Shown piece after piece: positions 1 through 19,028 of a stretch of DNA of 19,028 nt. Under the pieces are notes generated by a model. It did no database searches. It saw only the letters and a program-made list of their open reading frames with translations, and was not told where the DNA came from. This DNA is from Thermoplasmatales archaeon SW_10_69_26 (GTDB taxonomy: Archaea; Thermoplasmatota; SW-10-69-26): positions 85,187-104,214 of the forward strand of contig PXUB01000025.1 of the NCBI GenBank assembly GCA_003009755.1, written 5' to 3'. Position 1 is the first letter of the stretch. Each line of letters opens with the position of its first letter. Both the position numbers and the translations under genes were made by a program.

Positions 1-177
1 GATGCTCGAGGATTCGAACGACCTTCGGTCGTCCTCTCGCCAGCATCGGGCCCGCGCAACCGCTGTCGGGCCAACGATGCTGGCGATCTGTACGGCCTCA
101 GCGGTATCCGCGGTCGGCCGTACCATCCTGAGAGACGCCGTTCTGTGACCGCGAGGTGCCCGATGGTGAGGCGTCTC
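1..177. repeat. Gene-free stretch dense in inverted repeats
   Basis: I see no convincing gene here. The stretch holds several perfect inverted repeats in a row. ACGACC (18-23) pairs with GGTCGT (27-32) around a 3-nt loop. A 12-bp repeat, TCGCCAGCATCG (37-48), matches CGATGCTGGCGA (75-86). An 8-bp repeat, GTACGGCC (90-97), matches GGCCGTAC (116-123), with a nested GCGG/CCGC stem inside. GATGCT at 1-6 can also pair with AGCATC at 42-47, so two folds compete. This could be a structured RNA, a terminator region for a gene left of the window, or a decayed element; the sequence does not decide. Confidence 0.5.
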
Positions 178-5269: not shown

Positions 5270-5356
5270 CTGAGCGGTCGCGCTGACGGCGTCGAGCTGC
5301 GTCGGAATCCCGCAGAGGGGATTCCTACCTCGCTCTCCTTGTCAGCGACCGCTCAG
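5270..5356. repeat. Palindromic element with nested CCCGCAG hairpin
   Basis: CTGAGCGGTCGC-GC-TGAC (5270-5287) pairs with GTCAGCGACCGCTCAG (5341-5356) except for a 2-nt bulge. Nested inside is GGAATCCC (5304-5311) with GGGATTCC (5318-5325). The right arm recurs at 5487-5502 and 5636-5651. The whole element resembles 1254-1337. Confidence 0.65.
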
Positions 5357-5651
5357 ATGGCTCAGTCGTGCGGCCATCCTGCCTCGGTGCGCGGCCTCCT
5401 CGCCGACCCCCCTCGCATCGACGCGGCCACCCCCGGCGGTTCGGTTCCTCCCCAAGCGGCGGCTGGCAGGGCACCCCCCTTCCCTTGTCAGCGACCGCTC
5501 AGGTTCGAAGGGGCCGCCACCCTCCTGCCTCGGTCCGACCCTTCGGTCGCCGACCTCCCTCGCCCCTCCCAACCCGGGCCCGGACTCCCAACCCGTGAGG
5601 GACGTAGGACGGAGCACGTTCACCTCGAGTTCCTGGTCAGCGACCGCTCAG
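5341..5651 (+). repeat. Three direct copies of GTCAGCGACCGCTCAG, ~148 bp apart
   Basis: Exact 16-bp copies lie at 5341-5356, 5487-5502 and 5636-5651, with spacings of 146 and 149 bp. The DNA between the copies is partly related: both units carry a CCTGCCTCGGT block followed by GCCGACC and CCCTCGC. This looks like a degenerate tandem array with a conserved 16-bp core. The spacing is far too long for a CRISPR array. Confidence 0.65.
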
Positions 5652-5991
5652 ACGGTGGGGTTGATGCGGCCACCCGGTGTGCGGCGATACCCATCGAACG
5701 GAGATAGCGTTTCGAGCGCGGTCTCCGAGGCCTCCCGGACCGGTGTCCATCGTCGGTACGCGTCCGCGAGAACGTTCACGGATCTCCCGCGCGAGACGGG
5801 GGAGCCCTGCCAGCGCTGCTGATCCGGCTGGTGTGGGCCCGCCCGGCGTCGGCCCCGGCGCTCGAGCGGGTCGCTCGGCGGTCGCCGCAGCCGGGGCCAG
5901 ACGTCGGTGGAGCGTGGAGGCGGCCTCGCGGGGGTCCTACCGCCAGGCGAACCCTCGCGAGAGGGGGGGTGGATCTCCCATCCATCCAGAG

Positions 5992-6116: not shown

Positions 6117-7673
6117 ATGCACTGGGCCGACGTCCTCGCCGAGGATCTGCTCGAGCGGGGCTCCGAGCACACGCTCGCCACCGGGATCACGCCCTCGGGA
6201 CCGATCCACGTCGGGAACCTGCGCGAAGTGCTGACGACGGAGGCCGTCCATCGCGCCGTGCAGGACCAGGGCGGATCCTCCACGTTGCTTTACGTCGGCG
6301 ACACCTACGACCCGCTGCGCAAGGTCTACCCCTTCCTCGAGGACCACCCCGAGATCAACTACGCCGACCACGTCGGCGAACCGATCTCGACGGTGCCGGC
6401 CCCCGACGGCGAGCACGAATCCTTCGCCCACCGGTTCCTGTCGCCGTTCCTCGACGCTCTCGCCGAGCTCGGCATCGACCCCGAGATCCGGCTGGCGCAC
6501 GAGCTGTACGAGTCCGGCGCCTACCGCGAGGCCATCGAGCAAGCGATCGACCACGGCGAGACGATCCGCGGGATCCTCAACGACGTCGCCGGTCGCGACC
6601 TCGAGCCCGGCTGGGTGCCGTTCAACCCGCGCTGCCCCGATTGCGGGCGCTTCAGCGAGACCGAGATCACGGCCAGCGATGGCACCAGCCTCGAGATCCG
6701 CTGCTCGTGCGGGTTCACCGGGTCGCTCGACGCGTTGGACCCCGGCGCCGGCAAGCTGCCTTGGCGCGTCGACTGGCCCGCGCGGTGGGCGTTCCTCGGC
6801 GTCTCCTTCGAGGCGTTCGGCAAGGACCACGCCGCCAGCGGCGGCAGCTGGGACACCGCCGTCCCGATCGCCGAGCAGGTGTACGGGATCGATCCCCCCG
6901 GCCACGAGGTGTACGAGTGGATCCACGTCGAAGGCGAGGGGGCGATGTCCTCCTCGAAGGGGACCGGGATCGCGGCCCAGGACGTGCTCGAGGTCACCCC
7001 GCCCGAGGTGCTGCGGTTCCTCTTCATGCGCTACCGGCCGAACAAGCACGTCGAGTTCGACGCCGGCGAGGGGCTGCTGGACCTGGTCGACGGCTACGAC
7101 CGGGCGATGACCGAGCTCGAGGAGGAAGGCACGAGCGACGAGCTGCGCGATCCCGAGCGCGTGCTCGAGCTGTCCCAACCCTCCGGCGAGATGCCCGAGC
7201 ACCCCAGCCAGCACGTCTCGATGCGGCACCTGGCTCGGTTGGTCGACATCTACGAGGACACCGAGGAGGTGTTGGCCAGCGTGCGCCGGTCCGGCCACAT
7301 CGAGGAGGTCACCGACGCCGAGGAGGGGTTGCTGCGCTCGCGGATCGAGCGCACGCGAGCCTGGCTGGCGACGTTCGCACCCGAGGACGCCCAGTTGACC
7401 AGGAACCCGGGCGCCTGCGGTCGCGCGTGCACGAGCTCACCGCCTGGCTCGACGGGGCGCCCAACGTCGCCTCGCAGGGCCCGGGTCCGCCCGAGGAGCT
7501 GGCGGTGTTCGCCCTTTGGCGCGCCCTGGCCGCGAGAGACGCCGTCGACGTGGAGCCGCCGACGAAGCCGCGCGATCTCGCCGGCGAGCTGCAGACCCTC
7601 TTCGAGGGCGAGATCGACCGAGTCGACCGGCAAAGCTCCGACCAGGTGCTCGTCCCGCTGGCCTTGCACCTAG
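6117..7673 (+). CDS. lysS: Class I lysyl-tRNA synthetase, 3' end disrupted
   Basis: It charges tRNA-Lys with lysine. The class I signatures are clear: the HIGH-like PIHVGN at residues 29-34, a four-Cys zinc site (RCPDCG and RCSCG, about 172-203), and the KMSKS-like AMSSSKG (about 275-281), followed by the helical C-terminal part with 'HLARLVDIYEDTEEVL' and 'RIERTRAWLATFAPEDAQ'. Homology stops at about residue 426 (position 7396). The remaining roughly 90 residues (TRNPGACGRACTSSPP and on) are out-of-frame junk, and the conserved last C-terminal domain (about 100 residues, ending in a GPR-type motif) is missing. The break falls exactly at the end of a 99-bp sequence that recurs at 8044-8142. 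The gene is either truly truncated or the assembly is wrong here. Synthesis of lysyl-tRNA is essential, so a real truncation would be surprising. Confidence 0.85.
   Translation: MHWADVLAEDLLERGSEHTLATGITPSGPIHVGNLREVLTTEAVHRAVQDQGGSSTLLYVGDTYDPLRKVYPFLEDHPEINYADHVGEPISTVPAPDGEHESFAHRFLSPFLDALAELGIDPEIRLAHELYESGAYREAIEQAIDHGETIRGILNDVAGRDLEPGWVPFNPRCPDCGRFSETEITASDGTSLEIRCSCGFTGSLDALDPGAGKLPWRVDWPARWAFLGVSFEAFGKDHAASGGSWDTAVPIAEQVYGIDPPGHEVYEWIHVEGEGAMSSSKGTGIAAQDVLEVTPPEVLRFLFMRYRPNKHVEFDAGEGLLDLVDGYDRAMTELEEEGTSDELRDPERVLELSQPSGEMPEHPSQHVSMRHLARLVDIYEDTEEVLASVRRSGHIEEVTDAEEGLLRSRIERTRAWLATFAPEDAQLTRNPGACGRACTSSPPGSTGRPTSPRRARVRPRSWRCSPFGAPWPRETPSTWSRRRSRAISPASCRPSSRARSTESTGKAPTRCSSRWPCT
7298..7396 (+). 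repeat. 99-bp exact direct repeat, copy 1 (native lysS sequence)
   Basis: It encodes IEEVTDAEEGLLRSRIERTR and the following WLATFAPEDAQ in the lysS frame. By comparison with the LysRS family this copy is in its natural place. It is identical to 8044-8142. Confidence 0.9.
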
Positions 7674-8236
7674 TCCGCTCGATGCGGCGCCCCGCGGTCG
7701 ACCGGGACCCCCAGCGACTGGCCGACCGCGTCGAGGCCAAGATCGACGCCATCGGCGCCGGGCGGCCGGGCTCGCTGCCGGACCCCGAGACGCTGGCCGA
7801 GTGCGTGCGCGTCCTCCACACCGCACTGCACGAGGGCCTGCCGGACGCTCGCGACCGCTCGCCCGGTGAGCTGCGGCGACTGACCGATGCCCTCGAGGAC
7901 GCTCTCGCGGAGGCCGGCATCGAGCAACTGGCCGAGGCGGACCTGGGTCTGCCCGAGCTGGCGATGACCGACGTGCTCGTGGCTCGCTCCCTGCTCGAAC
8001 GCGCCCGCTCGGGCCTGGCGACGTTCCGCGAGCGCCACGAGCGCATCGAGGAGGTCACCGACGCCGAGGAGGGGTTGCTGCGCTCGCGGATCGAGCGCAC
8101 GCGAGCCTGGCTGGCGACGTTCGCACCCGAGGACGCCCAGTTTGCTCGACCGCCTGGCCGCCCTCACCGGACCCTGAGCGCCCCGGTCGGATCGGCCGGG
8201 GAACCCAGCCGGCTGGTCGTCCCCGAAAAGGCTTAA
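7427..8236 (+). CDS. Unidentified helical protein, probably chimeric
   Basis: The frame is open from within lysS, and the first reasonable start is GTG 7427. Residues encoded up to 8043 form an acidic, Leu/Arg-rich, mostly helical protein ('LTAWLDGAPN', 'LVPLALHLVRSMRRPAVD', 'LARSLLERARSGLATFRERHER'-like helices) that I do not recognise. The 99-bp lysS repeat then enters in frame (8044-8142) and shifts the reading frame, giving a Pro-rich tail to 8236. If the repeat is removed, the sequence reads on as RERHER-LLDRLAALTGP with a stop at 8175-8177. A 6-bp hairpin (8181-8201) follows directly, which looks like the original end. The true N-terminus is unknown. Confidence 0.45.
   Translation: MHELTAWLDGAPNVASQGPGPPEELAVFALWRALAARDAVDVEPPTKPRDLAGELQTLFEGEIDRVDRQSSDQVLVPLALHLVRSMRRPAVDRDPQRLADRVEAKIDAIGAGRPGSLPDPETLAECVRVLHTALHEGLPDARDRSPGELRRLTDALEDALAEAGIEQLAEADLGLPELAMTDVLVARSLLERARSGLATFRERHERIEEVTDAEEGLLRSRIERTRAWLATFAPEDAQFARPPGRPHRTLSAPVGSAGEPSRLVVPEKA
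8044..8142 (+). repeat. 99-bp exact direct repeat, copy 2 (misplaced)
   Basis: It is identical to 7298-7396, at an offset of 746 bp. It interrupts the end of the unidentified ORF and causes its frameshift. The bases just before and just after differ between the copies. Confidence 0.9.
8181..8201 (+). terminator. Hairpin after the inferred original stop
   Basis: CCCCGG (8181-8186) pairs with CCGGGG (8196-8201) around a 9-nt loop, 3 nt after the TGA at 8175-8177. No T-run follows. It supports 8177 as the ancestral end of the preceding gene. Confidence 0.35.
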
Positions 8237-8263: not shown

Positions 8264-8650
8264 ATGACGACCCGACAAGCCGAGGTCCGAGAACTGCGTG
8301 AGGGCCGTTACGTCGTGATCGACGACGAGCCCTGCAAGATCAAGTCGATCTCGACGAGCAAACCCGGCAAGCACGGCAGCGCCAAGGCCAAGATCCAGGC
8401 CGAAGGCATCTTCGACGACTCCAAGCGCCGCATGAAGGCGCCGGTCGACGACCGCTGCCGCATCCCGCACATCGACAAGCGGCAGGCCCAGGTCATCAGC
8501 GTCCAGGAGGACATCGTCCAGCTGATGGATCTGGAGACCTACGAGACATTCGAGCTCCGCATCCCGGAGGACCTCGAGGGCCAGATCGAGCCCGAGGACG
8601 AGATCGACTACCTCGAGGCGATGGGGCGCCGCAAGATCACCGGGACGTGA
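8264..8650 (+). CDS. eif5A: Translation factor aIF5A (hypusine-containing)
   Basis: The 128-aa protein is full length for the archaeal family. It helps the ribosome with slow peptide bonds and with termination. The N-terminal SH3-like domain carries the loop STSKPGKHGSAK, and Lys36 is the residue expected to become hypusine or deoxyhypusine. The C-terminal OB fold follows with 'VQLMDLETYETFELRIPEDL' and an acidic 'EPEDEIDYLEA' strand. The sequence is acidic and reads close to euryarchaeal, including haloarchaeal, proteins. A TATA box 32 nt upstream and no Shine-Dalgarno site imply a leaderless mRNA. pyrF starts 4 nt after its stop, so the two are probably co-transcribed. Confidence 0.95.
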   Translation: MTTRQAEVRELREGRYVVIDDEPCKIKSISTSKPGKHGSAKAKIQAEGIFDDSKRRMKAPVDDRCRIPHIDKRQAQVISVQEDIVQLMDLETYETFELRIPEDLEGQIEPEDEIDYLEAMGRRKITGT

Positions 8651-16632: not shown

Positions 16633-18942
16633 ATGGAAGACCGGTTCTCCGGTGATCTCAGCCTCCCCGAGGTCGATACGCCGGAGACCGGCGAGTGGTC
16701 ACAGTTCGTGCGCGAGCACTGGTGGACGGCGCTGCCGGCGCTGCTCGTCCTGTGGGGCGTGTTCTCGCTGCTGTTGTTCCCGATCGTCGGTTTCGTCACC
16801 GGCTCGATCACGGTCGGCATCCTCGCGTCGCCGCTGTTGGGCCTGGCCGCCGCGGGGGCGCTCGGCCATCGTTGGGGCCTGGTCGAACCCGTCGACGAGG
16901 CGAGACGCGATGCCCCGCTGTGGGCCCGCCTGCTCGTGCCGGTCCCCGTCTTCGCCGTCCTGTGGGCGCTGTTCTTCGTGGGCGTAGGCTCCTTCGTCCA
17001 GACCTTCACGCTAATCGCCGCGATCGCGACGGTGCTGGCGGCCGCCGCGACCGGCGCCGGCGTCGCCTCGCTGGGGCTCTGGCGAGGGTCGATCGAGACG
17101 ATCCGTGACGCGAGCCCGCTCGCGCGGCTGGGCATGCTCGCGAGTTTCGGCACCACGGTCGGCCTGCTCACGTTCGCGGGCATCGTCGTCGGCCTCGGCA
17201 ACGTGCCGCTGGCGCTGGCGACGCTCGTCCCCGTCGCGTTGCTGGCCGGCGTGGGCCTGGCCCACGGCCTCGGCTGGACCGAGGACGCCTACGAGGCGAT
17301 CCGGTCCCCGCACTTCGGCATCCGGTTGGGCGTCTTCGTCGTGCTCGAGGCGCTGTTGGCGGTCTACATCGCCGTCCAGGTCGGTCGGTTCATCCCGGAC
17401 GCCCGCTTCGCGTACGCGATCGGGATCGCGGCCGGCCTCGCCCTGCTCGTGCCCGCCACGATCTGGGTGCACGCCTGGCGGGACGCCTGGCAGGCGTTCA
17501 CCGACCTGGGCGAGGAGCACCGCGCGTTGGTGCTGTTGCCCGTGTTCCCGCTGGTCGCCGTCCTCGTCTTCGGTCTCGTCGTCGTGTTGACCGACAGCTT
17601 CGAGGCCGGCTACATCCTGAGCGTCCCGGCGGGGATCGCGGCCCTGCTGGCCGTGGGCGCGCCGCTGGGCGTGACCGGCAAGATCCCCTCGATCGTCCGC
17701 CGCAAGCAGCTGCCGACCCGGTCGGCGATCTTCCTGGCTTCCTTCGCGCTCCTCAGCGCGTACGCCTACCTCGGCTTCGCCCTCGTCATCCAGAACGTCG
17801 AGATCTCGCTCGTCGCCGGCATGGCGTTCGCCGGGCTCGTGCTCGGCGCCGTCAACTCGGCCTTCGACCTCGGCCGGGGGTTGGGCGAGGAGTTCGAGGC
17901 CTACGGCGCGCCCAGCGAGGCCGCCGTGCTCGTCAGCGTGTTCGCGCTGTCGCTGGCGCTGGCGTTCCTGGCGTTGGCGCTCACGACCGGCGACTTCCGG
18001 CTGGCGTTCCTGGTGAGCGTCGTCGTCGCCGCCGGCCTCAACTACCTGATCGCTCACTCGACCGGCCTCGTCGAGAGCATGCGAGCTGTCGTCGCCGACG
18101 TACCCTGGTGGGCCGACCTCGTCGTCCTGGCGGTGCTGTTCGCGGGCGTGGCGGCCTACGGCACCGTCGCGGTGGGCGTGTTCATCGCCAGCGCGCCCAT
18201 CGCGCTCACGGCCGGCGTGCTGCTGGGCCTGGGCGGCGTCGTGTTCTTCTCGCGCGACCTGGCGATCGGCCACGACGTGATGGCGGAGGCCGAGGAGCAG
18301 ACGACGGCCCGGGCCGTCGTGCTCCTGTTGGCCTTCCTGGGCGCCTTCCTCGCCGGGTTGTTCGCCTCCGGCGCCGCCCTCTCGCTGACCGGGACCGCGA
18401 TCTTCGGGTTTCCGCTCTTCGTCGCGGTCGTCACCGGCTCGGCGGCCGCGATCGCGCTGGCACGGTTCCGTGGCTGGGACGAGACCGTGCTCGGGCGCGT
18501 CCGCTCGCGCACGGACAAGCTCAAGGTCGTCACGATCCTCGCCGTCTGGTTGGCGGTCGGCATCTTCACCGGCTTCTCGCTCACCTCGCTGCCGGTCGGC
18601 GAGGCCGACCTCGGCATCGGCTCCTCGCCGAGCCTCCCGCTCACGCTCACGATCGGCGCCGGTCTCCTGTTGTGGATCTGGATGCCGGTCATCCTGTTCC
18701 GAGCCGTCGACGTGAGCCGCGGCCCCGCCGAGGCGACGATGGAGACCCGCGACCGCGGCCGGGCGCTCGCCAGCGCCGGATGGGGCCTGCTCGTGTTCGC
18801 GATCGTGCTCGTGACCGTGCTGTCGATCTTCAACCAGCCGGTGGTCGCCGTCGCTTCAGCCCTGGCCGTGGGGTACTTGGTGGCCCTGCTCATCAGCACC
18901 CGCGGCTCTCGGAACGACCCCGAGGACGTTGAGGGCTCATAG
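16633..18942 (+). CDS. Large polytopic membrane protein made of ~67-aa repeats
   Basis: The 769-aa protein is almost all hydrophobic, with about 20 membrane helices. About every 66-70 residues an amphipathic segment of the same type returns: GHRWGLVEPVDEA (about 77), LWRGSIETIRD (148), GLGWTEDAYEAIR (211), HAWRDAWQAFTD (279), GKIPSIVRRK (345), LGRGLGEEFEAY (411), STGLVESMRAV (473), LAIGHDVMAEAE (539), FRGWDETVLGRV (610) and a divergent one near 690. Each repeat seems to be two helices plus a short cytoplasmic helix. I do not recognise the family; a transporter, scaffold or structural membrane role cannot be told apart. The first 35 residues are acidic. Its final codon and TAG lie inside the following tRNA gene. 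Confidence 0.75.
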   Translation: MEDRFSGDLSLPEVDTPETGEWSQFVREHWWTALPALLVLWGVFSLLLFPIVGFVTGSITVGILASPLLGLAAAGALGHRWGLVEPVDEARRDAPLWARLLVPVPVFAVLWALFFVGVGSFVQTFTLIAAIATVLAAAATGAGVASLGLWRGSIETIRDASPLARLGMLASFGTTVGLLTFAGIVVGLGNVPLALATLVPVALLAGVGLAHGLGWTEDAYEAIRSPHFGIRLGVFVVLEALLAVYIAVQVGRFIPDARFAYAIGIAAGLALLVPATIWVHAWRDAWQAFTDLGEEHRALVLLPVFPLVAVLVFGLVVVLTDSFEAGYILSVPAGIAALLAVGAPLGVTGKIPSIVRRKQLPTRSAIFLASFALLSAYAYLGFALVIQNVEISLVAGMAFAGLVLGAVNSAFDLGRGLGEEFEAYGAPSEAAVLVSVFALSLALAFLALALTTGDFRLAFLVSVVVAAGLNYLIAHSTGLVESMRAVVADVPWWADLVVLAVLFAGVAAYGTVAVGVFIASAPIALTAGVLLGLGGVVFFSRDLAIGHDVMAEAEEQTTARAVVLLLAFLGAFLAGLFASGAALSLTGTAIFGFPLFVAVVTGSAAAIALARFRGWDETVLGRVRSRTDKLKVVTILAVWLAVGIFTGFSLTSLPVGEADLGIGSSPSLPLTLTIGAGLLLWIWMPVILFRAVDVSRGPAEATMETRDRGRALASAGWGLLVFAIVLVTVLSIFNQPVVAVASALAVGYLVALLISTRGSRNDPEDVEGS

Positions 18943-19006
18943 CTCAGCCTGGTAGAGCGGCGGGCTCATAACCCGTCGGCCGGCGGTTCGAATCCGCCTG
19001 GGCCCA
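18933..19006 (+). tRNA. tRNA with CAU anticodon (Met, possibly Ile2)
   Basis: A complete cloverleaf is present: acceptor GGGCTCA/TGGGCCC with one G-T pair, D stem GCTC/GAGC, anticodon stem GCGGG/CCCGT around loop CTCATAA (anticodon 18967-18969), T stem GGCGG/CCGCC with loop TTCGAAT, and discriminator A. No CCA is encoded and no intron is seen. Pair 1-72 is G-C, whereas archaeal initiators usually have A-U, so an elongator Met or an agmatidine-modified Ile2 tRNA is more likely. Three G-C pairs in the anticodon stem are initiator-like. The first 10 bases overlap the end of the preceding gene. Confidence 0.93.
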
Positions 19007-19028
19007 CTTCTCGACGGCCTTCGGCGAT

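Follow-up and report, generated by a model that had tools for sequence, protein, structure and literature searches.

The window, the whole 19,028-nucleotide stretch analysed here, is the N-free sequence between two scaffold gaps of contig C25 (C25:85187-104214). Its forward strand carries, at 6117-7396, a partial class I lysS gene, the 5′ four fifths, encoding residues 1-426. The product matches TIGR00467 with 425 bits and PF01921 with 374 bits, and shares 69% sequence identity with the full-length LysRS of the nearest relative. The last 99 bp of this partial gene (7298-7396) recur on the same strand at 8044-8142. The locus is sequentially composed of segment A (lysS up to 7297), the first copy of the 99-bp repeat R, segment B (7397-8043), the second copy of R, and segment C (8143 onward), giving the order A-R-B-R-C. 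Segment B is a 647-bp forward-strand piece that is protein-like in its codon usage and lies in a different frame from lysS. Segment C opens at 8143-8177 (+) with a probable native lysS 3′ end and continues into the gene for the archaeal translation factor IF5A (eIF5A; 8264-8650, +), identified by PF21485 and PF01287, which is also the lysS neighbour in the nearest relative. The long gap between a Lon-like gene and lysS contains three imperfect 34-bp repeats (5327-5655; core GTCAGCGACCGCTCAG) with spacings of 146 and 149 bp. A tRNA-Met (CAT) is located at the window end, at 18933-19007, beside a scaffold gap.

A direct-repeat scan of the window finds the two copies of R identical at 99/99 positions, with a spacing of 746. 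The repeat is maximal, as the flanking bases differ on both the left (A/G) and the right (G/T). It is present at two sites only in the 2.82-Mb genome, and no third copy exists. Apart from it, the direct repeats found in the window reach at most 45 bp, at 71%, so the 99-bp match is far beyond chance. An earlier reading of this DNA from the sequence only had described an exact 99-bp direct repeat with differing flanks and had assigned copy 1 to native lysS. Both descriptions hold: in the LysRS alignment, copy 1 encodes residues from about 395 to 426.

The interrupted lysS gene

The LysRS homology stops at copy 1. Residues 1-427 match positions 1-423 of the 515-position TIGR00467 profile, short of the complete C-terminal anticodon-binding region of a functional class I LysRS. 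In the alignment, relatives carry approximately 95 further residues past this point, including a conserved final V-x-x-R-L tail, and these residues do not continue after copy 1 in the window. Profile and alignment thus agree with the earlier statement that LysRS homology ends after copy 1 and that the C-terminal domain is missing.

The last 101 residues of a relative's LysRS were used as a query for the missing part. The C-terminal segment was not found anywhere in the archaeon's own assembly at E<=10. With the same query, 17 of 20 relatives give a match at E<=2.5e-8. Of the other three, two are drafts of 76-78% completeness, and the third is a complete genome (G009) with zero class I lysS matches in a lysS homologue search. 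As these three are incomplete drafts or a genome with no class I lysS match, the query detects the segment where the gene exists. A class II LysRS was not found in the genome either: the TIGR00499 matches are AspRS, AsnRS and PheS, and the best of them, the AspRS, scores 120.5 bits against a curated cut-off of 427.6. The assembly as deposited is without a complete LysRS.

The nearest relative, Thermoplasmata MAG CSSed11_322R1 (7980-bp record PWVY01000126), belongs to the same family and possesses an intact lysS of about 520 residues. Related halophilic Thermoplasmatota are the subject of a Great Salt Lake paper, which offers no link to this assembly. The lysS of the MAG has a gene for a Lon-like protease as one neighbour, like the window, and stops about 75 bp ahead of the eIF5A gene, the same lysS-eIF5A order as in the window. 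The join in the window therefore contradicts the gene structure of relatives, in which the gene is intact in this MAG and the C-terminal segment is present in 17 of 20 genomes.

Directly after copy 2, segment C reads TG CTC GAC CGC CTG GCC GCC CTC ACC GGA CCC TGA, that is, (V)LDRLAALTGP followed by a stop. In the alignment, (V)LDRLAALTGP falls on the V-x-x-R-L tail conserved in the relatives. When the peptide is read as a LysRS tail, its score is reached by 18 of 3361 (0.5%) stop-proximal peptides in the contig; this scoring assumes V at the junction codon, whose first base lies in R. The stop is 86 bp ahead of eIF5A, similar to the spacing in the nearest relative. The tail score, strengthened by the gene order with eIF5A, provides moderate evidence that segment C is the native lysS end, which it fits better than it does a terminus of the middle ORF. 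The sequence-only reading had instead taken copy 2 to interrupt an unrelated ORF; this is probably wrong, as LDRLAALTGP and its stop more likely terminate lysS. The related proposal that the ORF rejoins in frame once the copy is removed does not stand. Removal of 99 bp gives ...RERHER-ARPPGRPHRTL..., and the quoted HER-LLDRLAALTGP requires 97 bp (8045-8141) to be taken out.

Overlap-sized repeats in the assembly

Maximal exact repeats were listed for 685 kb of the 2.8-Mb assembly, comprising the outermost 3 kb at both ends of every one of the 49 contigs, together with the complete contigs C25 (with the window), C38 and C42. Repeats were classed as terminal when they reached the end of a contig or the edge of a scaffold gap. 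The terminal repeats include 21 pairs of exactly 99 bp and none longer. Among the 98 contig ends, 34 carry such a repeat. Because terminal repeats pile up at 99 bp with none beyond, 99 bp is the graph overlap of this assembly. The overlap between contig ends equals maxK in metaSPAdes and MEGAHIT and maxK-1 in IDBA_UD (PMC10914622), and the pattern of end overlaps in the census fits this rule. The lysS duplicate has exactly this length.

Exact copies also flank scaffold gaps. On contig C2, exact 99-bp copies at 967-1065 and 1078-1176 flank a 12-N gap, and the duplicate is clearly a k-sized copy made by scaffold joining. On C25, exact 85-bp copies flank the 72-N gap just before the window: window 1-85 equals C25:85030-85114 exactly, which looks like an unmerged overlap. 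The longest internal exact repeats in the sample measure 100, 100, 99 and 99 bp, the lysS pair among them. With internal maxima of 99-100 bp, the lysS repeat lies at the length where the graph stops separating copies. One internal 100-bp repeat, C42:57988-58087 and 58411-58510, has its copies 423 bp apart with flanks partly alike; the copies may be genuine paralogues or mark another loop in the graph.

An assembly join at k=99 had been named earlier as one of two explanations, and the 21 terminal 99-bp repeats, with none longer, strongly support it. The 99-bp duplication in lysS is very probably an assembly artefact and not a biological event, since a real duplication is unlikely to have exactly the overlap length and also to bring a loss within the only LysRS gene. 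In de Bruijn graphs, an A-R-B-R-C order is the product of a path through a self-loop at one k-mer. At a final overlap length of 99 bp, the single 99-mer R would be shared by three segments of the graph: A with the 5′ part of lysS, B with the orphan coding sequence, and C with the lysS 3′ end and eIF5A. The path would enter R from A, circle the self-loop B, and exit to C. In the cell, lysS is probably a complete, ordinary class I gene with eIF5A behind it, the arrangement of the sister genus; a C-terminal segment of about 85 residues would have dropped out at the join. Of the junctions R-B, B-R and R-C, one or more would then not exist in the DNA of the cell, and B would belong elsewhere. A chimeric read, a smaller-k contig or a strain mixture may have supplied the support for each junction.

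Three points count against an artefact. First, in a k=99 graph, the B-R and R-C junctions must have had support from reads or a smaller-k contig. Second, B looks like coding sequence with native-compatible codon usage and runs in frame into copy 2. Third, the other internal repeats in the census (100, 100 and 99 bp) may mean that repeats of about 99 bp are in part real.

The middle segment and rival explanations

Segment B has a codon-usage score of 0.345 in one frame only, on par with the neighbouring genes, and reads in frame into copy 2. Its GC content is 74.8% against a mean of 69.2%, higher than 98% of 647-bp windows in the genome. The earlier suggestion to align the middle ORF to relatives yielded no homologue to align. 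No homologue above noise was found in the relatives, 389 genomes of the phylum and GTDB species genomes, nor in viral contigs, phages, plasmids, Pfam, NCBIfam and PHROGs. A single-sequence structure model is all-helical with a mean pLDDT of 53, too poor to use. B looks like a genuine coding sequence, an orphan of compatible codon usage. A hidden LysRS piece in another frame was considered for B and rejected, since the C-terminal query finds nothing genome-wide.

The strongest rival, itself quite improbable, is a real and very recent rearrangement, in which B and a second R replaced the lysS C-terminal segment in the population while a second intact LysRS is encoded in another strain or in the 5% of the genome missing from the assembly. 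The native-like codon usage of B is consistent with such an event, and in a genome 95% complete a second LysRS gene could be missing. But the duplicate matches the graph overlap exactly in length, the only LysRS found stays broken in every join tested, no class II LysRS is present in the assembly, and nothing like B occurs in any relative. The copy-and-paste event offered as the other earlier explanation is disfavoured likewise. It would destroy the only LysRS, and the genome search proposed alongside it recovered neither the missing C-terminus nor a second LysRS of class I or class II.

A small integrative element, with B inserted in lysS and the two R copies as left and right attachment sites, is extremely unlikely. 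Direct repeats do bound a higher-GC segment without relatives, but B is without a recombinase, a phage or plasmid relative or a family match. Between the repeats, the search for a recombinase or mobility gene gave no Pfam or NCBIfam match and a single PHROG hit no better than noise. An element that takes the end of a gene as its attachment site normally leaves that gene whole again, whereas A-R-C here is out of frame and some 85 residues short.

Of similarly slight probability is a tandem duplication in a diverged lysS family, which could make B a piece of a decayed lysS copy. Over its final 96 bp (7948-8043), B resembles R: immediately before copy 2, in the frame of that copy, the best 60-base stretch is identical at 39/60 positions and includes CTGGCGACGTTC, a level equalled by 1 of 1398 control blocks. 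The local alignment of B with lysS is exceeded in score by only one of about 274 non-lysS control pieces. The likeness was noticed post hoc, LysRS family models do not match B, and the first 119 residues of B are without the MSSSKG region expected of a colinear LysRS copy.

That the arrangement is real as it stands, and that the archaeon lives with a class I LysRS ending after 426 residues, its C-terminus displaced by an orphan, probably helical protein, would be hardly credible.

Comparison with known systems

An assembly artefact at this locus would mean that an overlap-sized duplicate falsely knocks out an essential gene in a draft that is 95% complete, within a contig that looks clean; its value is that of a warning only. 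Internal exact repeats with the length of the terminal overlap offer a quick, read-free test for false joins. Short of proof from reads, the lysS duplication is not to be taken for a biological feature.

Compared with the class I LysRS (TIGR00467) of Thermoplasmatota, residues 1-426 align over their full length and the catalytic core is present. The two differ at the C terminus, where approximately 85 residues are replaced here by unrelated sequence and a native-looking tail of about 11 residues stands after the second copy. The duplicate shares several features with the overlap-sized duplicates of the de Bruijn assemblers metaSPAdes, MEGAHIT and IDBA_UD: it has the terminal-overlap length, both flanks differ, and it exists in two copies only, placed at a gene break. 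Unlike those duplicates, it lies inside a contig, which would require the traversal of a self-loop or a wrong path.
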